Source: Microbulbifer sp. THAF38 | GTDB taxonomy: Bacteria > Pseudomonadota > Gammaproteobacteria > Pseudomonadales > Cellvibrionaceae | NCBI RefSeq assembly: GCF_009363535.1 | Contig: NZ_CP045369.1 | Span: 1,809,001 to 1,873,000 of the forward strand | Direction of reading: 5' to 3' | Length of the DNA stretch: 64,000 bases | Part shown: positions 1-27,392 of the stretch, piece after piece | Position numbering within the stretch: the stretch's first letter is position 1 | How the letters are laid out: every line of letters begins with the position of its first letter | The notes under the pieces: model-generated | What the model saw: only the letters and a program-made list of their open reading frames with translations | The model's database searches: none | Told to the model about the DNA's origin: nothing | Translations under genes and position numbers: made by a program

Positions 1-1365
1 CGCGCCCTGGTGCCCTGGAGAATCTTGCAGAACCGCAAGGGCACTAATGAGGCGGTTCAGGAAGTGATGTTGGCGGTGCCTTATGCCTACGGCAAGCTGG
101 ATGTACACAGTACGGCAGCCATTAATTACGGCCGCGCCTTGGATGCTTTTGGCCGTGAAATCGATACGCTGACCGCTTCTATCAATAGTATTCGCCAGGG
201 AAAGTTTCTCGAAGCGCTGCGCCGTAAAGAGGCTACCCAGGTGCAAAACTGGGTGGTGGCTTTGCGCAATCTGCCGGAGGCGCCGGAGACCCATTATCTG
301 CTCGATCTGATGGCCTCCAATGATTATCAGGAATTCCTGCGTAATTATCGCGATCTCAATGATCTCTACGAGCGGAATAAAGAATGGCTTAAAAGCCTCA
401 CCGCTTATGAATATATTATCAGTGCGCGTCGGGCTTACTACGAGCCCCTACTGCCACAGCTAGACGAGCAATTTCGTGCGCTGGATGTGCGTATTAAGTT
501 GCGTATGGAGCAGCGCGATCAGTTTTCCAATCGTATCGAGCAGATGCTGGTTTCCCGTCGCCCCGAATATCTCGCGACCGCCGATGAGCAGGAAGCGCGC
601 CTGCAGCTGCTGCAGCTGCACAAGGAGATCGCGCGCAATCCCAACGGTTTTACCGGGGAAACCCGCAGCCGCCTGGCGCGCCTGCAGGGCATTTTGGATT
701 TGCGTCTCTCCACCGAATATCACCAGCGCCTCACAGAGGCTTACAGGCATTTGCAGGAACTCAATATTGAGATTGAAAAACTGCAAACAATTTATCGTTC
801 CTATGTGCGCAGTCGTCAGGCGGCCACCCATAGTTACACCGGTTACAACAAGAATATCCAGCGTCTGCGTGCGCAAATTCACGCTGCACAGCAGCGTCTG
901 GAGATGCTGATGGCCCGCCAGGGCAGCATGCTGGAAGCGCTCGCCGTTGAAGAATTAGAGCGCCGTCGCAGCCAGTTGGAAAGCTACCAAATTAAAGCGC
1001 GCTTCGCCCTGGCCGATAGTTATGACCGTGCCAACGAGCTGCAGGAGCAGCGCGAGGATGAGCGCAAGATTGAGCAGCACCGCGAGGCTCAGCCGGAAAC
1101 GCTTCCGGCGCACAACCCTCCCGAAATGGAAGCATCAGAAACTGAAAATAATCTGCAGGAGCCGGATGAGGTTGAGCAGCACCGTGAAGCTCAGCCGGAA
1201 ACTCTTCCGGAACACAATCCTCCCGAAATGGAAGCATCTGAAACTGATAATAAGTTGCAGGAGCCGGACGAAGTTGAGTCACACAGCGAGACCCAGACGG
1301 AAGCTCTTCCAAGGAGCAGTTCTGCCGAATCGGAAGCTCCAGAGATTGAGGGGGATAAAGCGTGA
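1..1365 (+). CDS. Coiled-coil periplasmic/envelope protein, 5'-truncated by the window
   Basis: The frame is open from base 1 and the first possible start (GTG at 10) lies inside a well-formed protein, so the true start is probably upstream. The visible ~450 residues are highly charged and helical with long heptad-like stretches (roughly residues 120-350), then a Glu/Pro-rich tail built from three 34-residue repeats. No membrane segment is visible in this part. It overlaps the next gene by 4 bases (GTGA), so it is the first visible member of the motor operon. By position and helical character it may correspond to a GltC-like component of myxobacterial Glt machines, but I cannot show homology. 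Function unknown. Confidence 0.75.
   Translation, partial: RALVPWRILQNRKGTNEAVQEVMLAVPYAYGKLDVHSTAAINYGRALDAFGREIDTLTASINSIRQGKFLEALRRKEATQVQNWVVALRNLPEAPETHYLLDLMASNDYQEFLRNYRDLNDLYERNKEWLKSLTAYEYIISARRAYYEPLLPQLDEQFRALDVRIKLRMEQRDQFSNRIEQMLVSRRPEYLATADEQEARLQLLQLHKEIARNPNGFTGETRSRLARLQGILDLRLSTEYHQRLTEAYRHLQELNIEIEKLQTIYRSYVRSRQAATHSYTGYNKNIQRLRAQIHAAQQRLEMLMARQGSMLEALAVEELERRRSQLESYQIKARFALADSYDRANELQEQREDERKIEQHREAQPETLPAHNPPEMEASETENNLQEPDEVEQHREAQPETLPEHNPPEMEASETDNKLQEPDEVESHSETQTEALPRSSSAESEAPEIEGDKA
1078..1362 (+). repeat. 102-bp in-frame tandem repeat (about 2.8 copies)
   Basis: Copies begin at 1078, 1180 and 1282, exactly 102 bp (34 codons) apart. Copies 1 and 2 are nearly identical and encode HREAQPETLP followed by NPPEMEASET and LQEPDEVE. 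Copy 3 is degenerate and ends at the stop codon. The period is a multiple of three, so copy number can change without breaking the frame. Confidence 0.9.
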
Positions 1366-4300: not shown

Positions 4301-4556
4301 GGAGTATGAGCTGGCTCTGGAGGATCAAATTTATCCCTTCGAGGAAAAAGCGATTTCCGTACATGAGAAAAATGTTGAGCTGCTCGGGGTGGGTATTTAC
4401 AACCCCTGGGTCGACAAAAGTATCGGAAAGCTGGCAGGCCTGATGCCGGCCCGTTATGCACGCGCCGAGGAAGCTGGTGAGTATCTGCAGAATATTGTGC
4501 CCCTGCCGCCAGAACCAGAGGTGTTGGAATCGGGCGAAGCAGTTTCCGGCCAGTAA
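1362..4556 (+). CDS. Large TPR-repeat lipoprotein (GltD/GltE-like candidate)
   Basis: A 1064-residue protein with a long basic N-terminus, a hydrophobic segment and a lipobox LNAC (Cys44), so it is probably a lipoprotein. An Ala/Gln/Glu-rich low-complexity region (about residues 115-200) is followed by many tetratricopeptide-like helical repeats, for example around residues 205-300 and through to about 900, with typical YPDS and AYxxxG motifs. TPR arrays scaffold protein complexes. It starts at a GTG overlapping the upstream stop (GTGA) and is followed 23 bp later by a second TPR lipoprotein. Gene order before ExbB/ExbD-type genes recalls the periplasmic TPR proteins (GltD, GltE) of the Myxococcus Glt machine; the specific assignment is inference. 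Confidence 0.8.
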   Translation: MKSLTKRVKHPVRAAIKPVATGYKPPILLRRCALAAAVLLLNACAVNSGKTIGSLQNVDIEIKEEYIDGSLEKALASYQRYLQETPESKLTPEAMRRIADLKIKQAHRAEDAAIDGVAAAGSGAVIAIDAPEASQENTLEAPAGVAAPVAKVKEQQLQEQQVQEVAAEQTGAAESDADFEARASSSVDIAADTTPLQVPEEDPEALMSANAREAIALYLKLLKKYPFYDRNDQVMYQLSRAYEEAGQIDAAVDVLRQLVAKYPDSRHIDEAWFRLGEYHFTRKKYLDAEEAYGRVITIGEISSFYELALYKRGWSLFKQDMYEMALDDYVAMLDYKVSQGYDFDQQTNTVERKHVDDTFRVVSLSFSYMEGPDSIVDYFSRKGARQYEYLVYSHLGEYYLDKRRYQDSAKSYIAFVERNPLHKVSADFSIRVIDIYSKGGFPKLVLEAKKTFVNTYALNAEYWTVFDINEFGEVVEFLQANLIDLAGHYHAAYQNKKLKDKKGEHYREAIHWYRRYLQSFRETERAPEMNYQLAGLMLENRDFHNAALEYERTAYEYPTHKDSSEAGYAAVYAYREHLANNLKEASADQRAPQLREIIRSSLTFADTFAQHAKAPQVMLGAVEELYGLKDYTPVIENGRQLLEKFPAAEQEIRRSAWMLVAHGSFDTQAYVDAEVAYGETLNLTAADAKDRAGLVDNLAASIYQQGDMARKQEDHATAAGHFLRIRAAAPGATLLATAEYDAAASLIVLKDWTQAASVLNSFRRNFPEHELAKDVTKKLAVVYQESGELLLAAAEFERIERESEDEEIRREALTQAADLYSAAKDSDRALAVLRRYVKLFPNPMEPALETRQKIADIYKSSGQQKRYTQELREMVRIELRGGSQRSDRTRYLAGNAALQLAQPSYEAFTQVALVKPIEQNLNLKRKRMKKAISDFSALIDYKVADVTAAATYYLAEIYLHFSVSLKDSERPSNLSALELEEYELALEDQIYPFEEKAISVHEKNVELLGVGIYNPWVDKSIGKLAGLMPARYARAEEAGEYLQNIVPLPPEPEVLESGEAVSGQ

Positions 4557-4579
4557 CAGTGAAAATGGAGATTAGGGCT

Positions 4580-5164
4580 ATGCAAACAAGATTGCGAATG
4601 GTTGTCCTGATGGCGGTGGCTTTGTTTCTGGCTGCCTGTGCGGGTGTCCAGACCAAGTCGGGAAAAGTTTCTGATTATTCCTCTGTGCGGGTATCCGGCA
4701 GTGTGGGCCGGGACTTTGCGCGTTCCCTGGAGCTCCTTGCCAATAAGGAATTTGTGCAGGCCATTGAATTATTGGAGTCGGTTGTTGAGCGGGAGCAGCG
4801 CTTGCCTGCACCTTATATCAATCTCGGTATTACCCAATCTCAGGTTGGCGAGGAAAAAAAAGCGGAAGAGGCTTTTCTTAAGGCGTTAGAGATTGATGCC
4901 GAACATCCGGTAGCCACCAATGAGTTGGCCGTGCTTTATCGCAAGCAGGGTCGCTTTGCCGATGCGCGCAAAATTTATGTGAATGCCTTGGCAGAAAACC
5001 CCGAATACCTGCCTTTGATTAAAAATCTAGGCATATTGTGTGATCTCTATCTGCAAGATCTCCAGTGTGCTCTGGCACAATTCCAGCAATATGTGCAGCT
5101 GGAGCCAGAAGATCAGGATGTATCCATCTGGCTGGCGGACCTTAAGAGGAGGGCGGACAAGTGA
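4580..5164 (+). CDS. Small TPR lipoprotein
   Basis: I choose the ATG at 4580 (194 aa) over the GTG at 4559 because GGAG sits 9 bases upstream and it gives a compact lipoprotein signal ending in LAAC (Cys20). Three to four TPR units follow (about residues 50-185; motifs such as APYINLGITQ, KAEEAFLKAL and HPVATNELAVLYRKQGRF). It is probably an outer- or inner-membrane-anchored periplasmic scaffold. Its stop overlaps the next start (GTGA), so translation is likely coupled within the motor operon. It resembles GltE/AglT-type TPR lipoproteins in size class and context only. Confidence 0.8.
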   Translation: MQTRLRMVVLMAVALFLAACAGVQTKSGKVSDYSSVRVSGSVGRDFARSLELLANKEFVQAIELLESVVEREQRLPAPYINLGITQSQVGEEKKAEEAFLKALEIDAEHPVATNELAVLYRKQGRFADARKIYVNALAENPEYLPLIKNLGILCDLYLQDLQCALAQFQQYVQLEPEDQDVSIWLADLKRRADK

Positions 5165-5484
5165 CAGTGCAGTGTAAATGGATTTTGCCGTTCCTTATGG
5201 GGTTAGCTATTTCGTCATTCGCCAATGCGCAATCACAGGATGAAGAAAAAACACAATCCACAGAAAAGAAAGTGGATTCCAAGGTAAAGGAGCTATCGGG
5301 TATATCCATTATTGGTAACAAGGAAGCGCCCAAGTCCCTTTATATCGTTCCCTGGAAAAGTTCCGAGGTGGGCGTTGAAAGTGATCTTGTCTCCAGCTTG
5401 ATGGACGACAAGCTCAAACCGCTCGACAAGGAAGTTTTCATGCGTGAGCTGGAGTTCTACCAGCTCAGCCTGTCCGGCGATTAA
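5161..5484 (+). CDS. Small exported protein of the motor operon, unrecognised
   Basis: A 107-residue protein starting at GTG with a strong AGGAGGG site 9-15 bases upstream inside the preceding gene. The N-terminus is a Sec signal peptide (hydrophobic segment, ANA cleavage motif near residue 23), followed by a charged stretch of about 75 residues with no cysteine. I recognise no family. It sits between the TPR lipoproteins and the ExbB-like gene, so it is probably a periplasmic accessory of the complex; that role is inferred from position alone. Confidence 0.7.
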   Translation: MTVQCKWILPFLMGLAISSFANAQSQDEEKTQSTEKKVDSKVKELSGISIIGNKEAPKSLYIVPWKSSEVGVESDLVSSLMDDKLKPLDKEVFMRELEFYQLSLSGD

Positions 5485-5553
5485 CGCCGTCCTTTCTCTG
5501 GCAAATGCCAGAGCAGCAACCAATTACTGCAGTATTTCTCAAGAGGGTTTGTA

Positions 5554-6321
5554 ATGGACTTTTTCAATAGCGTCATCGAGTTTTTCCAGACGGGCGGTAC
5601 TTTTATGTACCCCATTCTTGTGGTGGCCGCCCTGGGTAGCGCCGTAGCGATTGAGCGATTTATTCGCCTGCACTACGAGCGCCATACCAACCGCACCATG
5701 TGGGATAAATTACAGCCGATTCTCTCCAGTGGGGATTTCGATCGCGCTCGCAATCTGGTCAAGCAGGATAATTCCAGTGTAGCTAAGCTGCTTTCCATGG
5801 GCTTGGCCCGCCAGGGTGCGGTGCGCCGTCGCGAAGACATCGAAATCGCGATGGAAGAGAGCATGATGGAAATCACTCCGCAACTGGAAAAGCGCACTCC
5901 CTACGTCGCACTGTTTTCCAATATTGCCACGCTGCTAGGGCTGCTCGGTACCATTATGGGCCTGATCGAAGCCTTTACTGCGGTTGCTAATGCCAACCCT
6001 GCAGAAAAGGCTGACCTGCTCTCCGCCAGTATTTCCGTGGCGATGAACACTACCGCCTTCGGCCTGATGACCGGTATTCCCCTGTTGATCGTGCATGCGC
6101 TGCTCAACTCTCTCACCGGTGAAATTATCGACAGCCTGGAAATGGTTTCCGTAAAAGCCTCCAACCTGATCGACAGCTCAACTCGCCGTCGCTTCGAAAT
6201 CGATGCGCCTGCTTCAGAGAAGAAAGCTGAAAATAAGCCAGTCAAGAAATCTGAAAAGCACTCTAAAGCGCAACCCGAGGCCCAGGCCAAAACCGAAGAA
6301 CAGCAAACGGAAACTGCGTAA
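5554..6321 (+). CDS. MotA/TolQ/ExbB proton-channel family protein (AglR-like)
   Basis: A 255-residue protein with the three-helix layout of the TolQ/ExbB/MotA family: a TM at about residues 18-36, a cytoplasmic loop, then TM2 (about 122-145, with LLGLLGTIMGLIEAF) and TM3 (about 170-195, AFGLMTGIPLLIVHALLNS). The LGTxxG motif and Thr/Gly-rich TM3 are typical of the channel subunit. The C-terminal tail (about 215-255) is Lys/Glu/Gln-rich. Start ATG has GAGGG upstream, and the stop overlaps the next ATG (TAATG). With the two ExbD-like genes and the AgmX/PglI-type gene downstream it matches AglR of the AglRQS motor better than an iron-uptake ExbB, but simple sequence reading cannot exclude a TolQ/ExbB role. 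Confidence 0.9.
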   Translation: MDFFNSVIEFFQTGGTFMYPILVVAALGSAVAIERFIRLHYERHTNRTMWDKLQPILSSGDFDRARNLVKQDNSSVAKLLSMGLARQGAVRRREDIEIAMEESMMEITPQLEKRTPYVALFSNIATLLGLLGTIMGLIEAFTAVANANPAEKADLLSASISVAMNTTAFGLMTGIPLLIVHALLNSLTGEIIDSLEMVSVKASNLIDSSTRRRFEIDAPASEKKAENKPVKKSEKHSKAQPEAQAKTEEQQTETA

Positions 6322-6911
6322 TGAGAAGGCGGCGCCACGGGAGAGATAGAGAAGCCCCGGAGCTGGACATCACCGCCTTCCTGAATCTGATGGTGGTGTT
6401 GGTACCCTTCCTGTTGGTATCGGCAGTGTTCTCACGGGTAACAATTTTAGAGCTGAATATGCCGAGCGGAGCCGGCGGCGGAGCGCCGGATGATCCCGCA
6501 GTTACGGTGGAAGTCGTCGTGCGTAAGGAAGCACTGGAAATCAGTGACGGTGAGAAGGTCATCGCGCGTTTTCCTAATCTGACTCAGCCCGAAGAGGGTG
6601 AGCCCGCTCCGGTGGAAGCGGTTGTGGAGGAGGGTAATGAAGAGGGTGAAAAGCTTGCCCTGTTGCCAACTGCCGAGGTCTACGACCTGAAAAAACTTAC
6701 CGAGTTTTTGCTGCAGATAAAAGCCAGCTATCCGGAAAAAACCGACTCTATTCTTTTGATGGAGGCGGATATCGCCTATGAGCATCTCGTGGGTGTGATG
6801 GATAGCGTGCGCGGAGCAGAAGTGCGTGTGGAAGGCAGTGATCCCAGCGATCCCGAAGCGGTGGAGAGGGTGGTACTGTTTCCCGATATTTCCATAGGAG
6901 ATGCGCCGTGA
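6321..6911 (+). CDS. ExbD/TolR family protein lacking the TM aspartate
   Basis: A 196-residue protein with a basic N-terminus, one TM (about residues 17-40, DITAFLNLMVVLVPFLLV) and a periplasmic ExbD/TolR-type domain carrying an acidic insertion (about 85-115). In canonical ExbD/TolR the motif is F(I/L)DxM with an Asp that carries protons; here that position is Asn22 (FLNLM). The start overlaps the upstream stop (TAATG) and the next gene overlaps this stop (GTGA). It is probably a structural partner in a hetero-oligomeric stator with the following ExbD, which keeps the Asp. Confidence 0.88.
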   Translation: MRRRRHGRDREAPELDITAFLNLMVVLVPFLLVSAVFSRVTILELNMPSGAGGGAPDDPAVTVEVVVRKEALEISDGEKVIARFPNLTQPEEGEPAPVEAVVEEGNEEGEKLALLPTAEVYDLKKLTEFLLQIKASYPEKTDSILLMEADIAYEHLVGVMDSVRGAEVRVEGSDPSDPEAVERVVLFPDISIGDAP

Positions 6912-7453
6912 GACATGAAAGCCGACGTATGAAGCGCATGGCGCGCAGCCACAAGCGCAAAAAAACCTCGGGGATGAATCTCACCTCGCTGATGGACGTG
7001 TTCACCATTCTGGTGTTTTTCCTTCTCACTAACACTTCCAGCAATGAGGCGTTGGAGCCGCCCAAGGTCATCACTTTGCCGGATTCAGTAGTGGAGACTA
7101 AGCCCAGGGAAACCGTGACTTTGATGGTGACTGACGAGGAAATCCTGGTGGAATCCAATTCGGTGGTGGCTACCAGCGAGGTGCTTGAGAGTGAGGAAAT
7201 CATTATCGAGGCCATCAAGCAGGCAATGATTGCTGAAATGGGTAAGGCCATCGGTGTGGCCCAGGCTTCTGCCGAAGCAGAGGCTGAGGAAGAGGGCACT
7301 GAAGGTGAAGTGCAGCCGGAGCCACCGGAAGTCAATATTCTCGCGGACAGGGGCATACCGTTCAGTTTGCTTAAAAAGGTGATGTCCAGCTGTACGGAAG
7401 CTGGCTACACCAAGGTATCGCTGGCGGTTATTCAGAAAGCATCTCAGGGTTAA
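6908..7453 (+). CDS. ExbD/TolR family protein with conserved TM aspartate (AglQ/S-like)
   Basis: A 181-residue protein with a strongly basic N-terminus (Arg/Lys-rich, residues 1-20), a TM at about 24-42 (MNLTSLMDVFTILVFFLLT) containing the protonatable Asp30 of ExbD/TolR/MotB-type stators, and a periplasmic domain with a Glu/Ala-rich insertion (about 115-135). It starts at GTG overlapping the upstream stop. Together with the Asn-bearing paralogue next door it gives one ExbB-like and two ExbD-like subunits, the same stoichiometry of gene types as AglR-AglQ-AglS. Confidence 0.9.
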   Translation: MRHESRRMKRMARSHKRKKTSGMNLTSLMDVFTILVFFLLTNTSSNEALEPPKVITLPDSVVETKPRETVTLMVTDEEILVESNSVVATSEVLESEEIIIEAIKQAMIAEMGKAIGVAQASAEAEAEEEGTEGEVQPEPPEVNILADRGIPFSLLKKVMSSCTEAGYTKVSLAVIQKASQG

Positions 7454-8844: not shown

Positions 8845-8886
8845 AAAAGTGTCTCCTTCTCACTTGGGTGAGGAGGAGACACTTTT
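8845..8886 (+). terminator. Rho-independent terminator after the motor operon
   Basis: A perfect 13-bp stem (AAAAGTGTCTCCT at 8845-8857 pairing with 8874-8886), further extended inside the loop by TCTCA/TGAGG pairing, followed by a T run. It begins 3 bases after the stop of the AgmX-like gene, so the giant-protein gene pair probably has its own promoter in 8887-9126. Confidence 0.9.
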
Positions 8887-18100: not shown

Positions 18101-21100
18101 CTGCGCAAATTACAGACGCTGCCGGTACAGCGGTTGCCACTCTGAGCGAAGGCACCGATTTTAATGCGGCCTTTGATGCTGCCAGTTGTACGCTCACCCT
18201 TACCTCGATTGGCGCTGGAGCAATGTTGGCTACGGATCACCATCTGTTGCTAAGTTACGACGCCACCCTGGATGCGGATACCCGCGATGGCGATACGCTC
18301 ACCAATATTGCCGGCGTAACACTGTGGCACAGTTGGGATAGCAGTGCGCCCGAAGCGCGTCAGTACACCCGCCCGGCGCCAACCGACGGCACTCCTGGGG
18401 TTCTTGATCACGAGGACGTGTTCAGCGTGAGCGCCTCGGTACCCAAGGTGACTTTCTACAAGACTGTTGAGAATGTTACTCGTGGGGAAAGTCCAGCAAC
18501 TGAGGCCAGCCCTGCAGAGGTATTGCGTTACACCCTCACACTGACAAACCTGAGTGGTGTGGATGTCAGCGGTATAGAAATTACTGATGACCTGGGCCGA
18601 CTAAACAGCTTGCCGCTATTCCAGTCCGGTTCACTCCAGCTGGTGACTGCTCCGACAAGTAGCGATAGTAGCGGAACAGATTCTTCTGCTGGTACCCACG
18701 GCAGTGGTTTGCTGAAGGTGACAAATCTTGACTTGGCGGCAAGTGGCAATGCTGGCGATTCAATTCAGTTGGTCTATGAAGTCACTCTCGCCCCTGTTAT
18801 TGATAGCGCTACAGCTGTATTGAATCAGGCTCAGGTACAGTTGCCAGGCCAGTTACTCAAAAACAGTGACGATCCCAATATTAACGGCACCGATGATCCT
18901 GACGCGGAGGGTGATGAAGATCCCACTCAGGTGTTAATCGATTCCGAGCCACTGCTGGTGGTACACAAAACCTCAGCGGATATAACAGGCGATCCGGATC
19001 TGCTGATGGTGACGGATACTCTGCGCTATACCATTCGCGTGGAAAATACCGGTAGCGAAAATGTCGTTAATGCAATGCTGCGCGACCAGATTCCAGCCAA
19101 TACCACTTACGTAGCGGGTTCCACCACTTTGAATGGTTCTGCGCTTTCGGATGTAAGTGGCACTTCTCCTCTTGCAGCTGGAATGAGTATTAATACCAAT
19201 GGCGAGGCCGATGGCTTTATTGGTGCGGCTGCAACCGGTGTTGCAGCTGCGGTAGTCACCTTTGATGTCACCATTAATGATGTCAACGATGGCACCATGA
19301 TTTCTAACCAAGGCTTTGTTAATGGCGAGGGTGCAGGAAGCGGTCCCTTTGCTGAAGTGCCTTCGGATGATCCTGCTACCGATGCGCCCAACGATCCTAC
19401 AATCGATATTGTGGGCGATGTCCCCTTGCTGATTGCGCATAAAACCGTGGCAATTACTGTGGACAATATTTCTGCGGGCATTGTTGATCCCGGTGATGTA
19501 CTGCGTTACACCATTGCAATTTCCAATATGGGGGGAGTCGATGCACTACAGGCGGCTCTCACCGATCAGGTGCCTGCAAATACCACTTATGTTGCTGGCA
19601 GTACGACCCTAAATGGCGTGGCTGTTGCCGATAACGCTGGCGGTATGTCACTGCTGAACACGGCCTTGCCCGTGTCTTCCAATGACCTAACACCACCACT
19701 GCCGGGTGCCGATGAGGGTGTGATTACTTCTGCACAAACGGCCACTGTAACTTTTGATGTGATGGTGAATGCGGACGTTGCCAGGGGGACTGTAATTAGT
19801 AACCAGGGCAGCGTCACTGCCGAAGAACTGCCCCTGGTTCTCACTGATGCGGATAGCAATCCGGCCAATGGTGCCCAGCCGACTCTAGTGGTTGTGGGTG
19901 ATGCGCAGCTACTTTCAATTGTGAAAGAAGTCGCCGTTATCGGTGGCGGTGCAGCTGAAGCCGGTGCAGTGCTGGAGTACCTGGTGGCCATTGAAAATAT
20001 CAGTGGTGTACCGGCAACCATGGTGACTATTACTGATGACCTAATGGTTGCTGGCGATGGTGTCCTTACCTACGTTGCAGACTCTGCCACCCTCAATGGT
20101 CAGGTCGATGGTGTCAGTATCGCTGGTCAGGTAATTACTGCAGATTACTCCACTATTTATGGGGATTTGTTGCCGGGTGAAAGCGCAACACTGCGCTTTC
20201 AGGCAAAGCTTTCCGACAACCTGGAAATTGGTTATACGGTGCTGAACACCGCTGAAGTACAGTGGAATGATCCTCCTTCAACTAATCAAGCCAGTGTTGC
20301 CATAGATGTGGGCGGTACGCCGGGTATTGCCAACTTGGCCGGTTACCTATGGCACGATGTGAACTTCAATAACCAGGCGGATGCGGACGAACGCCTATTG
20401 TTGAATTGGGCTGTAGATCTCTATTTCAATGATACTTTGCTGGAAACTATCCAGACCGACGAAAACGGTTACTTCCAATTCCAAGGGCTAGTTCCAAATG
20501 GCTACGGAGGTCTCAGTTATGAGATGCGCTACACCGCACCGGATGCCACTGAAAATACTGCATCTTTAGGTAACTCGGTTTCCGATTTCACCGATGGTCC
20601 GCAGCGTATTAGTGAGATTTTTGTAGACTCAGGGGCCAATCCGCAGGACTTGAATTTACCGCTGACACCAAATGGTGTGGTGTACAACTCGATCCTGCGT
20701 GAGCCCATTACCGGTGCTGCTCTGACCATGCTGCGTGCCAGCTCTGGGCAGGAATTGCCGGATCGCTGTTTCGATGATGAAAAGCAGCAGGGCCAAGTAA
20801 CCCATACCGGTGGTTACTACAAATTCGACATTAATTTCGATGATGCCGCTTGTCCTGCCAATGCGGATTACCTGATTAAGGTAGAGCTTGCCGACAAGAA
20901 ATATGTCGGTGGTGAATCCCTGGTAATTCCTGCACAAACCAATGAGGAAACTGCCGGGTTCGATGTGGGTGCCTGCCTCGGCAGCAATGCTGACATGGTG
21001 CCGGGAACCGCGCAGCACTGTGAAGTGCAGTTGTCCCCGGCACATCCGCCGCTGGATATCGAAGCGCGTGATACGTTAACCAATTACTACCTGCGCCTCT

Positions 21101-22176
21101 CTCTGGATGACCAGCAGATTCCAGGGGACAGTCAGTTGTTCAACAACCATATTCCTATGGACCCGAACCTGGAGGGTGCGCTTTCCATTACCAAAACTGC
21201 GGCCATGCTGAATGTGACTCGCAGCCAGTTGGTGCCTTACACCATTACCTTTGGCAACAGCTTGCCGGTGCCGCTCACAGATTTGCAGTTGGTGGACTTC
21301 TTCCCCGCTGGCTTCAAATACGTGGCCGGCTCGGCGCGCCTCGACGGTGAACCGGTAGAGCCGGAGACAAAAGGTTTGCAATTGGTCTGGTCCGACCTGC
21401 GTGTGGAAGCCGATCAGACCCGCGAGCTGAAACTGCTGCTGGTCGTGGGCTCCGGTGTGGGCGAGGGCAAGTACGTGAACCGTGCGGCTATGTTCAACCA
21501 GCTCTCAGGGCAAGCCGCTTCTGGTGAGGCCTCGGCAACCGTGCGTGTGGTGCCAGACCCCACCTTCGACTGTACCGATGTGATCGGTAAGGTTTTCGAC
21601 GATAAAAATATGAATGGCTATCAGGATGCCGGTGAAGGTGGTCTGCCTGGTGCGCGAGTGGTGAGTGCTACTGGCCTCAATGCTACCGCTGACGCCCACG
21701 GTCGATTCCATATCACTTGTGCTGTGGTACCGAATCCTGATCGCGGTTCCAATTTTGTGCTCAAGCTCGACGACCGCAGTCTGCCCAGCGGCTATCGTCT
21801 CACCACGGAAAACCCGCGTGTAGTGCGCGCGACCCGAGGCAAGATGGTGAAGTTTAACTTCGGTGCCAGCTTGCACCGGGTGGTGCGACTGGATATGGCT
21901 GAGGCGGTCTTTGAACCGACAACTACCGAGATGCGTCCCCAGTGGCAGTCCCGTATTGAACTGTTGCTGGAAAAACTCAGTGAGGCGCCTTCGGTATTGC
22001 GTCTGTCTTACCTCGCGGAAAATGAAGACCCGGATTTGGTGGAAGAGCGTTTGCAAGCGATCAAGACTGAAATTGCCGAGCAGTGGGCAGCTAGTTATGG
22101 CGACTACGAATTGACTATTGAAACGGAAGTATTCTGGCGGCGTGGTGCGCCGCCCAGCAAAGGAGGGTGGCAGTAA
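9127..22176 (+). CDS. Giant DUF11-repeat surface protein (4349 aa), putative adhesin
   Basis: One uninterrupted 13-kb frame. The start is the GTG at 9127 or ATG at 9133/9136; all give a signal peptide ending near ARA (residue 37). Most of the chain is an array of DUF11-type beta-sandwich repeats with recurring motifs such as GDxLxYxIxxxNTG, DTLP and LxVxKT, each often opened by a VxxPxLxxxK segment; the clearest pair is at about residues 3277-3590. An SdrD B-type domain lies at about 3732-3800 (GYLWHDVNFNNQADADE), a second SdrD/carboxypeptidase-like domain at about 4149-4250 (GKVFDDKNMNGYQDAGEGG, with Asp/Asn ladder suggesting calcium), and an alpha/beta end domain at about 4255-4349 ending in FWRRGAPP. 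There is no membrane anchor or sortase signal. Its stop overlaps the start of the OmpA/beta-barrel gene (TAATG), so the two are probably a surface fibre and its outer-membrane partner. Confidence 0.88.
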   Translation: MTMMSEVIGRKSWNNALVGLVLLCIWIALFAPQARADHNCPSSPDNPAFFNIIEHSSSNSWCELCGDGQVAIKIEVPSIRSGFMGTQHIENIVVTEDLGSSQLEYVPGSTWVSSGSIISEPTISGSTIRWDQNDLTALAARNESTTLWITFEVRSRADREEDLVNNNRRIYASASFDYCGDSETDYHDLVLSIKEPLPSVDKRGRNIDAGQTNYTNNVYGNINDDVIWRIAISNAGDADMQDARFDDLMTNPNMDINYACSSESAAQAIANSNGSNPGVSGCVSASNNINNFELDGSFSGGSGRTDVPANSTLNIYLVGKVNTSCSDGTNTVSDIQWGCEIDDDTGVGGISSPAVGSGPGSDEEAMYARVADALDITQVITGTNLNQPLGSAGFVTITINNQTRGSVKDIQFVSDLPDEYVVDTTYTPQITLDRRGRNDGHDANYAPTYYGKVDILQWRVGSNWNQWDSDPLKNNKPEFRLLSSTVHPDYSDQRDMMRHGDEIQIRFRIVTTEPSFYDKMADLDVEEESAGNGKDPNSNIPLANNVLTIDYEDFCPSTNPPTQVENQSVTPDPEDLDISTVHPLYIVRDSGTSELTVDVTNNGGHDADNYDVYVTFGEAMRVLSNDRACTPIGKPNPGTVPAHPLWNQPDYLPASSAVYRCSNLGGVIEPGKTERIVFQVEKNHSATDDDLTFRADVVGEITLSDGTPLYFPEPVVLSETTPNKQLANNYTLDGMRARVMGFNLIKERSDQCNELTSETAFSNDSVLIGEECRFEIQAGGWFGFDTPGFTLIEVRDIDVLDDLPDGQGYINDAPLNCADVTLPHPTSQANCVVIPSGDIVESGGLNIPLSETDFLWEVTSKITLRDRWFLADMTTRLLNDPVDTENTDPNQHANLSTDFARAQFTAVFDTETIVVDNFNTSGILTNIDGIPTTVPGFPDITEWSETVTVSEPHIEIDKKVCNENLYGIGTSCTNFVDFTNEGHRDQTYIFRLTLTNRAADGGVNRAPAYDLVVTDTLDPTGQMCVQALGSDGLDNDGDGSAETNSGDDGWVGTTIGANNYSEASHCSDGGTPAIVTFSYEHSSALERINPGDSVTLYYRVKPHRSVAPLQLFNNTFYARYDSLEGDFGHQTATQIDSDADNDGVGDGTPAAGRARHYKTADAEARMQIIEVKAEPKQALELSNGTASGTNSDTVVVGEEIRYRLTAKIPAAKLRNFVIRDELPAGMRCIEGQTVNLNASPYDAAGFIPGGTFSATCTSTGTADYVEWDFGDQELTTVTGSLFDFPVEFIARIENSSNTDDGDLLGNGGSYTTAQVSYVDEAGGNIVVPFDSHEITVLEPKIKLNKSFAVTNSDADDILTVTVTAENTGTAAAYNLQVLDDLTGTKLVYVGNIGGNDPPQNDDVTTIGANAPIFSWNRNNADYSIAVGATKSFTFDVRVEQGVEPHEILDNTIQARWQSLPGKDISLNSSKTIGNDGAADGMRIGVLPNGGDAINDYETNASAQTEVLPLQMSKTDLQPAVVPTIGAHKKFQLEISLPEGISQSVAITDQLGSPEGYVLSHNSDYDISYDFIGIETINGAAPSEAAFNSFPADNTAGNATWDIGTVDTNSENDTAGGTIEPLIRITYFARIANDLATNDGDSRRNGATLSYSNGETGAGENLNDRTAAVTVVEPLLTVSKTVSNATNPGNLPVGGDVLEYEITVAHAGGSTAAAYDLNLVDTLPSELQLDNSFTPTALINGGAVAGFVATPAAAPNGPLIWGRDNGDNSLDLQLGETLVITYRTQVNGVFGSPISNSVMLDWTSLDNSSINDQAYERDGAGCPSISAPDDYCAGPANASIDTVDNTSLSKTVIADSDSATPVGTLRVGDTVTYQLVLNLQAGTTPAVTVTDTLPSGLEFDSIVSVNGDTTAPYDDNLNDYSYAAIAVPTAGDTGTVTWNLGDIRSNFGNTNHFVIEYTAKVQTGAGIAVPTATLTNTAQLNYTGAASALQDSASITVLQPRLANLTKTDANWPSSHMNVNPANDVMQFTLQACNTGLAPAYDLSLTDDLATQMDQSSIANLRVSLDGTVLTQGADYNYTAPANRGDDMRFTLQVPIEAGACLDIYYEIGFYTDIGGGENWVNTFTANEFWSLPSKNGEQYAPVPLATPYPMGTVATTVTPLQKTLLTAPTAAVGEEVVYRIQVPGSATTAAIHDLVITDVLDPSLSLVQLQEINGRAFTDNTSNNNIALAVDMIPAGDVAIFEVRARVANNATAQAGHNFANQASYSFAATKGGAAQAGGVGTAPALTIVEPDLSATNTVANQTSPGNDPDAGDVLRFTLDLSAAGNTENSAAFDLAISEQLSLGLQFVPGSVTFAGAAQADPTVTGDGVNNAQALEWNRTNSDLDIAAGNNSLLVFDALVLDEVLAAASLSAAARIEWTSLDEDNSSSHERNGADGVGGLNDYVLENIAAQLTAANDSTLSKTRVDDSYGSGNAQLRIGDLVEYELRLALPEGSAPNAQIVDTLPQGMVFAGTVSVNGNSNAPFAAVAPFAHSDIAEPVQAGDPAMGPTTLSWNIADLRNLGDNNAVNDEFVLRYRARVLNRDVHPWPANNTVLTNNVVFSFDAATGTEARNDSETLDLLQPDLAVAISATPAGGTTLSAGDTVDYTITITNNGSAPAYDPVFKDLIPHGLRQRGISVQSINVNGAAASAITPAFDNSTGEAVWDFSAGTGYAINPGQTLQMVYRVQADANLGAGLNLQNAATVETYYSLDGDNLPSLGATAVALDMREDYGPTAPVGVQFNTPNAAPLLIENTQPTASIGEPFNYRITIPQTPQPAALHDVSVLIDLSASAAELEFIGAAKVSGKNAFTPQNTGSTTALVIADNTNGIDIPAGEQVVIDITLRLRDSNPPNVDGFLFSNSASYSYNYGNDNPALGQGAGAGNATLDMQVVEPTAITLTKTGPASVQSGLPGTFTLDLHNIGTGPAWDISVTDILPDNNPGGMCETAPNNFAAQITDAAGTAVATLSEGTDFNAAFDAASCTLTLTSIGAGAMLATDHHLLLSYDATLDADTRDGDTLTNIAGVTLWHSWDSSAPEARQYTRPAPTDGTPGVLDHEDVFSVSASVPKVTFYKTVENVTRGESPATEASPAEVLRYTLTLTNLSGVDVSGIEITDDLGRLNSLPLFQSGSLQLVTAPTSSDSSGTDSSAGTHGSGLLKVTNLDLAASGNAGDSIQLVYEVTLAPVIDSATAVLNQAQVQLPGQLLKNSDDPNINGTDDPDAEGDEDPTQVLIDSEPLLVVHKTSADITGDPDLLMVTDTLRYTIRVENTGSENVVNAMLRDQIPANTTYVAGSTTLNGSALSDVSGTSPLAAGMSINTNGEADGFIGAAATGVAAAVVTFDVTINDVNDGTMISNQGFVNGEGAGSGPFAEVPSDDPATDAPNDPTIDIVGDVPLLIAHKTVAITVDNISAGIVDPGDVLRYTIAISNMGGVDALQAALTDQVPANTTYVAGSTTLNGVAVADNAGGMSLLNTALPVSSNDLTPPLPGADEGVITSAQTATVTFDVMVNADVARGTVISNQGSVTAEELPLVLTDADSNPANGAQPTLVVVGDAQLLSIVKEVAVIGGGAAEAGAVLEYLVAIENISGVPATMVTITDDLMVAGDGVLTYVADSATLNGQVDGVSIAGQVITADYSTIYGDLLPGESATLRFQAKLSDNLEIGYTVLNTAEVQWNDPPSTNQASVAIDVGGTPGIANLAGYLWHDVNFNNQADADERLLLNWAVDLYFNDTLLETIQTDENGYFQFQGLVPNGYGGLSYEMRYTAPDATENTASLGNSVSDFTDGPQRISEIFVDSGANPQDLNLPLTPNGVVYNSILREPITGAALTMLRASSGQELPDRCFDDEKQQGQVTHTGGYYKFDINFDDAACPANADYLIKVELADKKYVGGESLVIPAQTNEETAGFDVGACLGSNADMVPGTAQHCEVQLSPAHPPLDIEARDTLTNYYLRLSLDDQQIPGDSQLFNNHIPMDPNLEGALSITKTAAMLNVTRSQLVPYTITFGNSLPVPLTDLQLVDFFPAGFKYVAGSARLDGEPVEPETKGLQLVWSDLRVEADQTRELKLLLVVGSGVGEGKYVNRAAMFNQLSGQAASGEASATVRVVPDPTFDCTDVIGKVFDDKNMNGYQDAGEGGLPGARVVSATGLNATADAHGRFHITCAVVPNPDRGSNFVLKLDDRSLPSGYRLTTENPRVVRATRGKMVKFNFGASLHRVVRLDMAEAVFEPTTTEMRPQWQSRIELLLEKLSEAPSVLRLSYLAENEDPDLVEERLQAIKTEIAEQWAASYGDYELTIETEVFWRRGAPPSKGGWQ

Positions 22177-25100
22177 TGTCCTTTGCAGATAGCGATAAAA
22201 ATCGCAGTAGCATGGAACCGTCGAGCGCTCTGGTTGTTGCAAAAAAAACTGTTCGCACATTTCGCCGACGTGAGCGCTGTTTGGCCACGGCCATCGCCCT
22301 GGCACTGGCGCTACCGGCACAAGCGCAACAACCAGTTGCCCCTGAGGGTGCTGAGCCCCAGGAGTCGAGCTGGTGGCAAGTGTGGCAAAAAATTCCCGGA
22401 CTGGCTCCAGAAATAGAGGAGCCACAGGCAGAATTTGAGGAAAAGCCCATCGGCAGTAATACAGAAAGTATGCTGCTGCGGGCCCCCGCCAATCAATGGC
22501 TGCAGGATGCAGGAAGTTTTATTGCTCCGCCTGAGCCAATTGTGCTGGAAGACTTTATCGAACCCATACCGTTTTATACTGTAGAGGATGAAGTCTCCCC
22601 AGAGGCTATAGAGTTATTGCGAGAAAAACTCACCGAATTAGGTGAAAAGCCAAACTTCAAGCTGCACTTTATTGGCCACACTGATTCTGATCCCATGCAA
22701 AAAGAATTGGTGGCTGACTATGAGAATAAGGATGACTTTACCCAGGCCAGGGCTCAGTTCGTAGCAGACTTCTTCCAGCAGGCCCTGGACTTGCCAGAGG
22801 AAATGATCACCGTGGAAGGCCGCGGTGATGTTGAGCCAATCGCCGATAATATCACCACCGCAGGGCGCGAACTGAATCGCCGCGTCCAGGTGCAGGTGAC
22901 TTACGATGCCCTGGATGAAGAAGCCATGGCGGCGCGCGCCCGCGCTGAAGCCCTGGCGCTGAACCGCGTGAAAGTATGTCGTCAGGAAACAGTTTGTAGG
23001 CTCAATTATACCGCGGGTACTGAGCAGCGCGCGCGCTTAAAAAACCTGGTCAATCCTCTGCGCTGGCAGGCAGGGCAAACGAATTTGCCCGAGGCGTTTT
23101 TACGCCGCATACGCGAAGTGCGCTCGAATTTAGCGAATAAAAATAATCTGGTCATCCATTTTGTCGGCCACACCGATGCGTTGCCTCTGCAGATTGGTGA
23201 AAGTTCTGAACAGCAGCAGAGTGCTTATCGGGAAAAATCCCATAGCGAAGCTCGCCGTGTCGCTCTGGCAGTGCGCGATGCCCTGGGCCTGCCAGACACC
23301 ATGATTACCAGTAGCGGCAAGGGTGCCAGTCAGCCTATTGCCGCCAATGACACACCTAAAGGCCGCGCTCTCAACCGTCGCGTGGAAGTGGAATTCTGGT
23401 ACGACGATCCCCTCGAAGTAGCGGTGGACGGGGTACAGGCCTGCCCGGAAGCGGCGGCTGCGGAAACCATTACCATTGCACACCAATCCCTGCGTGGAGA
23501 TATTCCGCCCATTCGCTTCGATAATGGCGATCCGATTATTACCCAGGCGCAGCTGACCCGAATGCGCGCTGCCATGGCGGAAATCGCCAGCAAGGCCAAT
23601 GTGCGCTTGAGCTTTATTGGCTACAGCGAAAACAAACGTATGGATCGCCGTGAAGCCATGGTTTATGGCGATGATGTGGGGCTTTCCGGTGCACGGGCCC
23701 GTCGCGCTATGGAGCAGGTAAAAGAGCTTCTCAGCCTTGAAGACACCCAAGTGCAATCGGAAGGTCGCGGTTATGTGCAGTCCGACGATGTAGTGGCCAA
23801 CGGCTTCACCTTGGATGAAGGTGCCAGGGTTGAAGTACAGGTACTTTACGATGAGCTGGCGATTCTGGCGGAGAGTGACCGCCTGGAAATCGAGCGCATT
23901 AATCGCGAGGCTATCGCCAATAATCCCTATTCGCTGAATTTAATGCGTATTACCGTGGATGGCAGCCCGGAGTATGACCCTTATAAAAACTCAGCCGACC
24001 TGCAACGCTGCACCGATGTGGCTCTCGATAATGCCAATATCCAGTTCCGCTTCGATAACAAAAAGATGCAGCCGCGCCTGAATGTTTCAGCCTGGCCCAA
24101 TACCATCCGTTATGCGGATAACCCGGATACCGAAAATAGCGAGAACCGCGTAGTTTTCCGCAGCTATACTAACTATCCCACCTTTATTGAGCAGGCCGAG
24201 GTGCGGCTGTTTGAAGAGGGCCAGTCCCTACGCGACACTCCACTTGATGTGGTACCACTGACAGCTGGGGAAGGAGAGTGGTTTGCGGAATTTTCCCAGT
24301 TCCAGGCGCCGTTAAAAAAACTGCACTATGTGCTGCGGGTGTACGATAGAAAAGGCCGCTTCGATGAAACCACCGAACAGACTCTGTGGTTGGTGGACAA
24401 GGTCGAAGAGTCCACAAAAGATGTGGATGTCTCCCAGGAATTACTGGTTGGCTACGGCGAGAACCGCCTAGCGCGACGAAATATCCCTCTGGATGGCAAC
24501 AGTGTGCTGGTGAACGGTGCCGAGGTGCCGCCAGGGCACACCGTGTGGCTGGCGGGTAATCCAGTACCGGTTAACGAGCAGGGCCAGTTTGTGGCCGAGC
24601 AGATTTTTGATCCCGGTATGCATACCGTAGAGGTGGCGGTTCTGGATGAAGAGGGCAATGGCGAATTGTTCCTGCGCGATCTGGAATTTGCCAAAAGCGA
24701 CTGGTTTACCGTGGGTATTGCCGATCTCACGATCGGCTACGATAAAACCAACGGCCCAGCAGCGCTGGTGACCGGCGATGAAACCCACTACGACAATTCT
24801 GTCAGCTACGATGGCCGTTTGGCATTTTATACCAGCGGTGGTTTTGGAGAAGGCTGGCGTTTGTCCGCCAGTGCGGATACGGAAGAAGGGCCTGTCGACG
24901 ATCTGTTTTCCAATTTTATGGAAAAAACCCCGGATGCCCTGTTCCGCCGTTTAGATAGTGATCTTTACTACCCCACCTTTGGTGACGATTCCACCGTAGT
25001 GGAGGATGCGCCCACTTCCGGCAAGTTTTATGTGAAGTTGTCCAAGTACGACGACTACGGCCTGTGGGGTAATTTCAAAGCGACTTATGCCGATAACGAA

Positions 25101-27392
25101 CTGGCGCAAATAGACCGTGCTCTTTACGGTGCCAATGGTCACTTCGAAAGCGATTCCATGACCAGCTTCGGGGAAAAGCGTTTCCAGGTGGATGCCTTCG
25201 GCGCGGAGCCAGGTACTATTGCCGGGCGCGATGAATATCGTGGAACCGGCGGCTCCCTGTATTTCATGCGACACCAGGATATTCTGAACGGTTCCGAGCG
25301 CCTGCGAGTGGAAGTGCGGGATAAAGACTCTGGCCTGGTGCTGGCCGTAAAAAATCTCTCGCCGGTCATTGATTATGATATCGATTATATTCAGGGCCGC
25401 GTACTGCTGAACAAACCACTATCCGCCCTGGCCAACGATAATTTATTAATTCAGGATGGCTCCTACAACGGCAATCCGCAGTATCTGGTCGCCCGCTACG
25501 AATACACTCCCGGTTTTGAAGAGATGGACACCCTGGCCTTTGGTGGCCGCGCCCATTACTGGTTTGGAGATCACGTAAAGCTGGGGCTCAGTGCTACCCA
25601 GCAAGATGAGGACGACAACGAAACCGCGTTGCAAGGCTTCGATTTAACCTTGCGCAAAACCGCCGGTAGCTGGCTGAAAGTGGAAGTGGCCAACAGCGAA
25701 GGTGGTAACCTGGATACCACAAACTCTTTGGATGGCGGTTTCACTTTTGATAATGGTCAGACCTTAGACCCCGAGGCCTCTGCGGGTGCGACCAAAGTAG
25801 AGGGTAGCCTGCAGCTGGGAGATTTCTTCGAAAGTCTGCGCGGCTCAAGTAATTTTTACCACCAGCAGCGCGAAGCCGGCTTCTCCGGCCCCGGCCAATT
25901 TGCCCGGGGCGAAACCACACAGTTTGGAGCCGGGGTCAACCTACCCCTTGGTGAAAGTTTCGATGTGGGCTTAAAAGCGGATAATAAAGAAGAGGAATTC
26001 GGTCTGCACACCAGTGCTACAGATCTGATGCTCGGCTACCGCCTCAACAACCACTGGCGTCTCAGCTCCGGCGTGCGCAATGATAGCCGCGAGGATTTCT
26101 CGGAGGTCGTTGCAGCCACCCAAACCGAAGGCGACCGCACCGATATGGCGGTGGAAGCCAGTTATGATTCCGGTGAAAACTGGAGTGCTTTCGGCTTTGT
26201 ACAGGGCACTGTGGAAGTAACCGGCACCCGTGAGGAAAACAACCGGGTTGGCATGGGCGGCGCCTACCGGGTGAGCGACAGACTCACCATGGATAGTGAA
26301 GTCTCCAGCGGCGATACCGGCTTGGCCGCGCGCCTGGGTACCGATTTCCTGGTGAGCGATAGAACCAGTGTTTACCTGAATTACACCCTCGATAACGAGC
26401 GCAGCGATACCGGCGTGCGTGCTCGCAAAGGCAATATGAGTACCGGCTTCCGCAGCCGTTATTCCGACACTTTGAGTATGTATGGTGAGGAGCGCTACAG
26501 CCACGGCGATGTCTCCACCGGCCTGACCCATGCCCTGGGTATGGACCTGGCGCCCAATGACCGCTGGACATATGGCACAACAGTAGAAGCGGGCACCCTG
26601 GAAGACCCACGCACCGGCGCCAAAACTGAGCGCAACGCCCTGGGTCTTAATATGGGCTATAGCCTGGATGAAATCCGTTTGGCTTCGGCAGTGGAATACC
26701 GCACCGATACTATGGAAACCGCACTGGATGAAAATACTGTAACGGAATCCGAGCGCGATACCTGGTTACTGAAAAACACCCTGAGCTATCAACTTAACCC
26801 AGACTGGCGCTTGGTCGGCAAATTCAATTACTCCGACAGCAAGAGCTCTCAGGGCGAGTTTTATGATGGCAAGTTTACCGAAGCGGTAATGGGCTACGCC
26901 TACCGCCCAGTGAATCACGATCGCCTCAATACGCTATTGAAATACACCTATTTCTACAACGTGCCCACCAAAGATCAGGTAACCGTAGAAAATACCTCGG
27001 CAGAGTTTATTCAAAAGAGCCATATTTTCTCCGTGGATGCCAGCTACGATCTCACCCAACGCTGGACCCTTGGCGGTAAATACGCCTACCGTCTGGGCCA
27101 GTTAAGCCTGGATAGAGAAGACCCAGAATTTTTCGACAGCCGCGCCAGCCTCTATGTACTGCGCGCAGACTGGCATTTTGTAAAACGCTGGGATCTCTTA
27201 ATCGAAGGCCGCCTACTCGACTTGCCCGACGCACAGGATAGTAAGAGTGGTGCACTGGTCGGCCTGTACCGCCATATTGGTGATCACCTCAAGCTGGGGG
27301 TGGGCTACAACTTTACCGACTTCTCCGATGATCTCACCCAGCTGGATTACGACAGCCAGGGGATGTTTGTGAATATTGTGGGTAAGTTGTAA
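22176..27392 (+). CDS. Outer-membrane protein: three OmpA-like domains plus C-terminal beta-barrel (1738 aa)
   Basis: I choose the ATG at 22176 (GGAGG 9 bases upstream, overlapping the giant gene's stop) over the GTG at 22167. A long basic n-region precedes a signal peptide (ALALALPAQAQQ). Three OmpA-like domains follow at about residues 120-250, 290-415 and 440-560; the first two show GHTD and the NRRV signature, while the third is diverged (GYSENKRMDRRE). A beta-rich/Ig-like region spans about 630-830. From about 850 to the end alternating aromatic strands with short turns (LGTDFLVSDRTSVYLNYTL and others) indicate a large outer-membrane barrel. OmpA domains bind peptidoglycan, so this protein could tie cell wall, outer membrane and the giant fibre together. 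Assignment of the barrel is from strand pattern only. Confidence 0.85.
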   Translation: MSFADSDKNRSSMEPSSALVVAKKTVRTFRRRERCLATAIALALALPAQAQQPVAPEGAEPQESSWWQVWQKIPGLAPEIEEPQAEFEEKPIGSNTESMLLRAPANQWLQDAGSFIAPPEPIVLEDFIEPIPFYTVEDEVSPEAIELLREKLTELGEKPNFKLHFIGHTDSDPMQKELVADYENKDDFTQARAQFVADFFQQALDLPEEMITVEGRGDVEPIADNITTAGRELNRRVQVQVTYDALDEEAMAARARAEALALNRVKVCRQETVCRLNYTAGTEQRARLKNLVNPLRWQAGQTNLPEAFLRRIREVRSNLANKNNLVIHFVGHTDALPLQIGESSEQQQSAYREKSHSEARRVALAVRDALGLPDTMITSSGKGASQPIAANDTPKGRALNRRVEVEFWYDDPLEVAVDGVQACPEAAAAETITIAHQSLRGDIPPIRFDNGDPIITQAQLTRMRAAMAEIASKANVRLSFIGYSENKRMDRREAMVYGDDVGLSGARARRAMEQVKELLSLEDTQVQSEGRGYVQSDDVVANGFTLDEGARVEVQVLYDELAILAESDRLEIERINREAIANNPYSLNLMRITVDGSPEYDPYKNSADLQRCTDVALDNANIQFRFDNKKMQPRLNVSAWPNTIRYADNPDTENSENRVVFRSYTNYPTFIEQAEVRLFEEGQSLRDTPLDVVPLTAGEGEWFAEFSQFQAPLKKLHYVLRVYDRKGRFDETTEQTLWLVDKVEESTKDVDVSQELLVGYGENRLARRNIPLDGNSVLVNGAEVPPGHTVWLAGNPVPVNEQGQFVAEQIFDPGMHTVEVAVLDEEGNGELFLRDLEFAKSDWFTVGIADLTIGYDKTNGPAALVTGDETHYDNSVSYDGRLAFYTSGGFGEGWRLSASADTEEGPVDDLFSNFMEKTPDALFRRLDSDLYYPTFGDDSTVVEDAPTSGKFYVKLSKYDDYGLWGNFKATYADNELAQIDRALYGANGHFESDSMTSFGEKRFQVDAFGAEPGTIAGRDEYRGTGGSLYFMRHQDILNGSERLRVEVRDKDSGLVLAVKNLSPVIDYDIDYIQGRVLLNKPLSALANDNLLIQDGSYNGNPQYLVARYEYTPGFEEMDTLAFGGRAHYWFGDHVKLGLSATQQDEDDNETALQGFDLTLRKTAGSWLKVEVANSEGGNLDTTNSLDGGFTFDNGQTLDPEASAGATKVEGSLQLGDFFESLRGSSNFYHQQREAGFSGPGQFARGETTQFGAGVNLPLGESFDVGLKADNKEEEFGLHTSATDLMLGYRLNNHWRLSSGVRNDSREDFSEVVAATQTEGDRTDMAVEASYDSGENWSAFGFVQGTVEVTGTREENNRVGMGGAYRVSDRLTMDSEVSSGDTGLAARLGTDFLVSDRTSVYLNYTLDNERSDTGVRARKGNMSTGFRSRYSDTLSMYGEERYSHGDVSTGLTHALGMDLAPNDRWTYGTTVEAGTLEDPRTGAKTERNALGLNMGYSLDEIRLASAVEYRTDTMETALDENTVTESERDTWLLKNTLSYQLNPDWRLVGKFNYSDSKSSQGEFYDGKFTEAVMGYAYRPVNHDRLNTLLKYTYFYNVPTKDQVTVENTSAEFIQKSHIFSVDASYDLTQRWTLGGKYAYRLGQLSLDREDPEFFDSRASLYVLRADWHFVKRWDLLIEGRLLDLPDAQDSKSGALVGLYRHIGDHLKLGVGYNFTDFSDDLTQLDYDSQGMFVNIVGKL

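Follow-up and report, generated by a model that had tools for sequence, protein, structure and literature searches.

An Agl/Glt-type motor core linked to a giant DUF11 repeat protein and an OmpA-barrel protein in Microbulbifer sp. THAF38

The gene block in the Microbulbifer genome

When the 64,000-nucleotide stretch of DNA analysed here (the window), part of the 4.79-Mb genome of Microbulbifer sp. THAF38, was examined, a block of about 11 genes on one strand was observed. The order is Q-A-B-C-D-ExbB-ExbD-ExbD-GltG (Q and A to H), then I and J, where the letters are labels of this analysis. The block begins upstream of the window; gene Q (191 aa, preceding A, at L009:10556-11131 in the upstream reading) and the 5' part of A lie outside it. 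An earlier sequence-only reading had listed the genes from A to J, and all were found in the places it gave. All features described below lie on the plus strand. The layout is not considered a chance arrangement because it recurs across phyla.

The first genes encode exported proteins. Gene A (3' part, 1..1365) encodes a full protein of 743 aa with TPRs followed by a coiled coil and a signal peptide recognised by eye; it is GltC-like by position, and its orthologues are present in linked operons of other genomes. Gene B (1362..4556) encodes a 1064-aa TPR lipoprotein, GltD-like by position, with a lipobox-like LNAC seen by eye, and gene C (4559..5164) a 201-aa TPR lipoprotein (lipobox LAAC), GltE-like by position. 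No GltC or GltD model matched the TPR proteins of the block, and the GltE model scored 27.9 bits on C (cut-off 225); TPRs and position fit GltC/D/E. A PDB sequence search with B (P0002) returned only designed TPR proteins. Through its TPRs, B also scores 104.5 bits with the tol-pal YbgF model, above the curated limit of 90.1 bits, which is an annotation trap. Gene D (5161..5484), a 107-aa exported protein without a named family, is present in most mapped operons.

Genes E, F and G form one cluster of an ExbB and two ExbDs (5554-7453), as in the Agl/Glt core. Gene E (5554..6321) is an ExbB/AglR-like proton-channel subunit (PF01618, 84.7 bits). The two ExbDs (PF02472 at 47.0 and 54.7 bits) are F (6321..6911), with the transmembrane Asp replaced by Asn, and G (6908..7453), with this Asp retained. 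Gene H (7463..8842) encodes a 459-aa long-form GltG-like protein with an AgmX/PglI C-terminus (NF033768, 66.8 bits; cut-off 40). About 165 aa precede its transmembrane segment (near 168), followed by a K/P/E-rich stretch and the TonB-like AgmX/PglI C-terminus. Among 26 closed H frames taken from other, partly overlapping loci, 23 have this segment at 170-195. It lies at 274 in the 557-aa frame of L133 and at 27 in the 343-aa frame of an Acidobacteria contig that was read twice (L112 and L136). In three short-form H proteins examined, the segment lies at 24-38. The GltG equivalog of M. xanthus has a cytosolic FHA domain, whereas no FHA match was found in H and H remains below the cut-off of the equivalog model (58.2 bits versus 650). 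The proposal of a distinct variant of Agl/Glt therefore holds.

A terminator-like hairpin (8845-8886) separates the motor block from I and J, as the same reading had stated. Its 19-nt arms (8845-8863/8868-8886) are 95% complementary; it came from the repeat search, and the consensus terminator scan listed none.

Gene I (9127..22176) encodes a 4349-aa DUF11 (CLIPPER) repeat protein (DUF11 at 167 bits, with SdrD_B). Six DUF11 stretches were found on their own, and an N-terminal hydrophobic segment is present; I is thus a long exported protein with several DUF11 domains, the description given for fibrillar adhesins. The conserved C-terminal 616 aa (20326..22173) contain SdrD_B/DUF11 domains and then an OmpA-like beta-alpha-beta-alpha-beta end. 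This part resembles Gram-positive pilins and SdrD and is about as conserved as J. In linked loci the length of I ranges from 1,578 to 4,785 aa, and the matched C-terminus is steady at about 604-637 aa. In a 2025 survey (PMC12617251), DUF11 is given the name 'CLIPPER' and treated as a fibrillar-adhesin stalk domain; its isopeptide bond is shown there in one crystal structure. I resembles the adhesins as presented there in carrying several DUF11 domains in a long exported protein; it differs from them in having a dedicated giant barrel partner and, here, a motor.

Gene J (22167..27392), whose frame overlaps that of I by 10 bases in the window, encodes an OmpA and giant barrel protein (OmpA 62.7 bits). 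Its presence and make-up had been described correctly; its length from the first start codon is 1741 aa and not 1738 aa. The two OmpA-like domains (22584..22880, residues 140-238; 23100..23396, residues 312-410) both keep the peptidoglycan-binding residues (Asp/Arg). The C-terminal region (24699..27389; model residues 286-1182) was modelled at moderate confidence (pLDDT 78) with 44 strands of at least 6 residues, of which about 40 are predicted to form the barrel. The nearest named relative of J is from Microbulbifer sp. ANSA002 (97% identity over residues 760-1741). Several public records label J as 'flagellar motor protein MotB', probably solely from the OmpA domain. We rejected this identity: the OmpA domain is common to both, but a MotB-like transmembrane segment was not seen and J ends in a barrel. 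A two-partner secretion or autotransporter barrel was also rejected, as neither POTRA nor a small C-terminal barrel is present (no POTRA, ShlB or autotransporter Pfam match at E ≤ 0.1) and about 40 strands were modelled.

A PDB sequence search with J (P0010) gave OmpA-type domains only, up to E 0.3. Sequence homology of J to SprA was dropped because the J profile (A2) matched no SprA chain in the PDB at E ≤ 10. When the J model was used for a structure search, the longest alignments among the 50 matches listed were those to the SprA chains 8gl6_A and 6h3i_A (576 and 550 residues, respectively), with an rmsd of 12-15 angstrom. Other matches among those listed were porins (about 230-300 residues), which match at the same Z as SprA, and ushers (340 residues).

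The same genome contains a second core (Q-A-B-C-D-E-F-G-H) at G000:C1:4375781-4385201 (L019 2782-12202). Its H has 334 aa, and no I-J adjoins this core. Both the long-form and the short-form core are therefore carried by this genome. Yet another AgmX/PglI protein, the third, has about 160 aa (L020 8362-8844); frames of 1294 and 788 aa precede it at a distance of a few genes.

Motor class and linkage across genomes

An ExbB tree of 59 rows was drawn, from which two duplicate rows, I-J rows shorter than 190 aa or without two ExbDs, and L029 and L031 were left out. L165 was placed with the two-ExbD rows by hand, and the L161 and L004 rows are long branches. A total of 29 long-form-core rows formed one set (100/96), including the window, G160, G243, seven Desulfuromonadales rows and two Myxococcota MAG rows; 27 are near J or split from J at contig ends, and two (G267 and G286) are far from J. 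Together with four short-form rows and G220 they formed a 34-row set (100/99), and with seven further Myxococcota rows a 41-row set (100/98). The AglR nature of these seven rows was judged from gene layout, not from name; two ExbDs are found beside five of them, one in L168, and one in the short stretch of L165. L154 and L155, which are Myxococcota ExbBs with two ExbDs, fell outside the 41-row set. The E. coli TolQ and ExbB and the window genome's own counterparts were placed in a separate set (99/94), and the separate TolQ-type ExbB of the window genome (L001) grouped with E. coli TolQ (100/99). An ordinary TonB or Tol system, a grouping that would have spoken against the sequence-only reading, is ruled out by this tree, since the window ExbB is found with Myxococcota Agl-like motors. 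The Agl/Glt class proposed for the motor is borne out by this placement and by the AgmX/PglI domain of H.

Of the 30 operons that bear the I-J label in the ExbB tree, 28 have Asn at the membrane-Asp position of the first ExbD, and the two Geobacteraceae rows retain Asp; the second ExbD has Asp in all 30. First ExbDs of short-form cores carry Asn (3/4) or Ser (1/4), and 2 of 8 in the Myxococcota two-ExbD group have Asn there. The ExbD pair is asymmetric in this residue, perhaps with one proton site per pair.

J distances track those of H (r 0.90, n 31), G (r 0.76, n 32) and E (r 0.63, n 32; 0.52 without G220), with a Mantel p of 0.0001 each, and shared species history adds to these figures. Most supported sets of the ExbB tree reappear in the J tree. 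Myxococcota MAGs stand beside gammaproteobacterial rows in both trees, as expected of joint transfer. In the ExbB tree, G160 and G243 are placed with another group, with low support (87/73); in the J tree they stand by themselves. The deep forks are unsettled in both trees.

A scan of GTDB contigs with the J profile gave 495 relatives, of which the best 80 loci were used. In 72 of these 80, the C-terminus of I adjoins J upstream on the same strand, and the remaining 8 contigs start in the J match or within 75 bases of it. Core genes were found inside the 10-kb flanks in 20 of the 80. First-round maps were made with an ORF picker that in several loci passed over E, F, G or D in favour of a longer frame, and later loci were mapped by tblastn and a hit-first picker. 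Whole genomes were searched for 50 of the 80 loci (Gammaproteobacteria, Desulfuromonadales, Myxococcota, Acidobacteria and others), all chosen for holding J. Left out were 17 Microbulbifer loci (L048-L064) and the short contigs L065, L076, L085, L093, L095, L108, L111, L114, L117, L121, L123, L125 and L126.

An AgmX/PglI match was found in 47 of the 50 genomes and exceeded the cut-off in 45. J lies within 20 kb of the AgmX/PglI (GltG-type) gene on the same strand in 33 genomes; in 14 others the contig ends in or soon after I and linkage is not readable. Among these 14, core pieces are at the contig edge in G265 and G268, and the break falls inside I in G256. Two genomes have core and J far apart: G286, and G267 (one chromosome), where a further I-like gene of 2058 aa comes after the core. 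The last genome, G285, has a fused I-J after Q and A, no motor gene found beside it and no over-cut-off AgmX/PglI protein genome-wide. Thus, where linkage can be judged, the two gene blocks are linked in most relatives, as the sequence-only reading supposed. A linkage special to one genus is ruled out by the loci across phyla.

Two gene orders were observed. The core precedes I-J in Gammaproteobacteria, Acidobacteria, Myxococcota and others, and I-J precedes the core in Desulfuromonadales (including Geobacter and Geotalea) and in one Nitrospirae MAG, whose contig fits Q and A alone. I and J are fused into a single open frame in two Myxococcota MAGs, of 5115 aa in L128 and at least 4811 aa in L129, with stop-to-stop lengths of 5128 and 5088 aa, respectively; Acidobacteria L135 has a fused frame of 3096 aa after Q and A. 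The I and J frames overlap by four bases in L134, L136, L137, L138 and L140. Other arrangements were also seen, including duplicate I-J copies separated by about 16 kb in each of two Microbulbifer genomes (L052/L053 and L057/L059) and a J-I-J arrangement in a Woeseiaceae MAG (L105).

I-J pairs and cores found apart

In an order sample of 244 genomes, J aligned over at least 1,600 residues in eight (G000, G015, G144, G160, G168, G189, G229 and G243). A GltG-type gene lies on the same contig and strand within 20 kb of J in seven of them, and the assembly of the eighth, G160, splits inside I. The five same-genus genomes of this sample carry the block. An over-cut-off AgmX/PglI frame of at least 440 aa was found in nine genomes, namely the eight with a long J and G142. 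G142 (84% complete, 4% contamination, perhaps with foreign contigs) contains two AgmX/PglI frames (670 and 728 aa, one of which scores 112 bits) and lacks a long J. In G220, I-J lies upstream of a core with a 371-aa H, with three frames between them, one on the opposite strand.

A sample of 398 Pseudomonadota genomes was searched for J relatives (E ≤ 1e-60) and AgmX/PglI proteins (E ≤ 1e-9), and absence of the core was judged from the AgmX/PglI protein alone. J relatives were found in 22 genomes and AgmX/PglI proteins in 15. J aligned from the OmpA domains on in G000, G015 and G444, and these three, which represent two lineages (two are of one genus), are also the only genomes of the 398 with an AgmX/PglI frame of at least 440 aa. 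In G444, J and the AgmX/PglI gene are on different contigs, each near a contig end, and a break inside I is possible. The remaining 19 J genomes have a J whose alignment starts at residue 439 or later, and none of them yielded an AgmX/PglI protein above the cut-off. Conversely, 12 of the 15 AgmX/PglI genomes have no J at E ≤ 1e-60, and their AgmX/PglI proteins are at most 433 aa long.

Thirteen of these 19 genomes were inspected, and an I-like gene is ahead of J in 11 of them (G061, which has no AgmX/PglI match, and ten of the other twelve). The two exceptions are L181, which starts inside a longer frame, and L183, where an unmatched frame of 1570 aa takes that place. Nor does the second J of G144 (L028) have an I match upstream. 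At L027, L174-L180, L182, L184 and L185, I-J pairs were observed in which no part of J matches the first two OmpA domains, with no over-cut-off AgmX/PglI protein in the genome; these may represent an uncharacterised barrel-plus-fibre pair. As I-J pairs occur in genomes with no AgmX/PglI protein above the cut-off, not every pair requires the motor. The coupling of motor and I-J proposed earlier stands as to Agl/Glt class and linkage; its simplest form does not, given the 19 of 22 genomes with J and without the core. Because the core-less J aligns only from residue 439 on and mostly has an I-like gene, I-J looks like the older and wider pair, with the core going with the version of J that bears extra OmpA domains.

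Possible function of the linked block

The core itself was known already. Luciano et al. (2011, PMC3169522) described aglRQS-gltCDEG with an additional gene in Gammaproteobacteria, one betaproteobacterium, Fibrobacter and Geobacter as, outside myxobacteria, a complex of unknown function, with duplications in some genera. The Group B core of that paper and the window block both have an ExbB with two ExbDs, three TPR genes, a GltG-like gene and an additional gene, and its grouping of Geobacter with Gammaproteobacteria was also obtained in our ExbB tree. In its main text, DUF11 and adhesin are absent, and both mentions of OmpA concern M. xanthus gltA. The long-form GltG with the I-J pair forms a subgroup apart from the short-form Group B core. 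Among the papers listed by keyword searches of literature mostly outside subscription journals, none was seen to tie the core to a DUF11/OmpA-barrel pair. The gliding (Agl/Glt) and Nfs machines of M. xanthus share with the window block the motor class, the TPR proteins and the AgmX/PglI domain; within the block, no GltA/B/F/H/I/J/K or CglB was recognised.

In genomes where core and I-J are linked, we consider it very probable that they act jointly. How they would do so is less certain, and we put at roughly 50% the reading that they form one envelope machine, in which the motor acts on a wall-tethered barrel and its fibre. In the inner membrane, E, F and G would make up a proton motor of ExbB/ExbD type and Agl class, and H would carry its stroke across the periplasm via the TonB-like C-terminal domain, assisted by the exported A, B, C, D and Q. 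The target of the stroke would be the outer-membrane pair of J, a giant barrel tied to peptidoglycan through its OmpA domains, and I, a repeat fibre held via its conserved C-terminus. The motor would then shift, tense or present the fibre of the assembled I-J at the surface. Gene content, linkage in two orders, I-J fusion, motor phylogeny, co-inheritance and the conserved OmpA residues are its observed base; from these we infer that H contacts J, that I lies outside and that force is applied. Against one machine are the unlinked G267 and G286, G285 without a motor gene, L154 and L155 outside the Agl-like set, and the 19 of 22 J-bearing Pseudomonadota genomes (G061 included) without an over-cut-off AgmX/PglI protein, which means that J can function in the absence of this core. 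The greatest difficulty lies in the topology, since the fused proteins put periplasm-type OmpA domains between I and the barrel, an arrangement that seems awkward for an I lying outside.

In the gliding and type IX secretion (T9SS) machinery of Bacteroidota, SprA is the translocon, GldLM the motor and SprB the adhesin. That machinery and the I-J system both combine a proton-driven motor, a very large outer-membrane barrel, a TPR lipoprotein and a giant repeat adhesin. The motor here is of the ExbB/Agl class, however, and no sequence relation of J to SprA was found. A common mechanism of gliding and T9SS, with outer-membrane proteins tied to a moving internal track, is set out in PMC12635249. 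By analogy with T9SS cargo passing SprA, J could be the translocon for I and the motor could power export. The model of about 40 strands, the length of the SprA alignments among the 50 matches listed, the pairing of I and J in 72 of the best 80 of 495 loci, sometimes as a fusion, and the co-inheritance of the motor all agree with this, but porins match at the same Z, the SprA rmsd is large and the J profile found no SprA in the PDB. We regard export as possible but doubtful. A motor acting on the assembled I-J complex is the more likely of the two, with moderate preference only, because some genomes have I-J pairs and no recognisable GltG.

The same evidence can be read with other parts of the envelope in mind. 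The Asp and Arg kept in the OmpA domains of J, the YbgF match of B and the TonB/TolA-like C-terminus of H would also suit a Tol-Pal-like tether, in which the motor pulls wall-bound J and keeps membranes and wall together, the fibre being secondary. This is unlikely: the window ExbB is apart from TolQ, the genome has its own TolQ-type ExbB, no TolB-like gene was recognised in the block, the YbgF match is a TPR match, and a C-terminus of I about as conserved as J would not be needed for a secondary part. It is also rather unlikely that I is a giant periplasmic track or tether instead of a surface adhesin, although its own end is OmpA-like and the fused proteins place it ahead of periplasmic-type OmpA domains. 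Its varying length over a steady C-terminus is as expected of a projecting stalk, that C-terminus is like Gram-positive pilins and SdrD, and DUF11 is presented as a stalk domain of fibrillar adhesins (PMC12617251). Finally, core and I-J could be mere co-travelling neighbours without physical coupling, and the genomes with only one of them (AgmX/PglI of at most 433 aa without J in 12 of 15, J without AgmX/PglI in 19 of 22) fit this; it is nevertheless very unlikely, as two gene orders, a fixed strand and the specific pairing of long GltG with OmpA-bearing J are difficult to account for if no function lies behind them.

An extension of the one-machine reading can be offered tentatively. The block may be a proton-driven outer-membrane system with an Agl/Glt motor, mechanically parallel to T9SS and gliding, in which a wall-tethered barrel (about 40 strands) first exports its own giant fibre and then moves it, and it may have been spread across phyla by transfer as a whole. 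If the model of J is true, its barrel would be among the largest single-chain barrels. The I-J pair gives a concrete candidate job and target to the Agl/Glt core, which in 2011 was without a function outside myxobacteria, and the role of the core can now be put to the test in Microbulbifer, Alcanivorax and Geobacter relatives. It would further hint at how a ready-made barrel-fibre pair acquired a proton motor together with the added OmpA domains.
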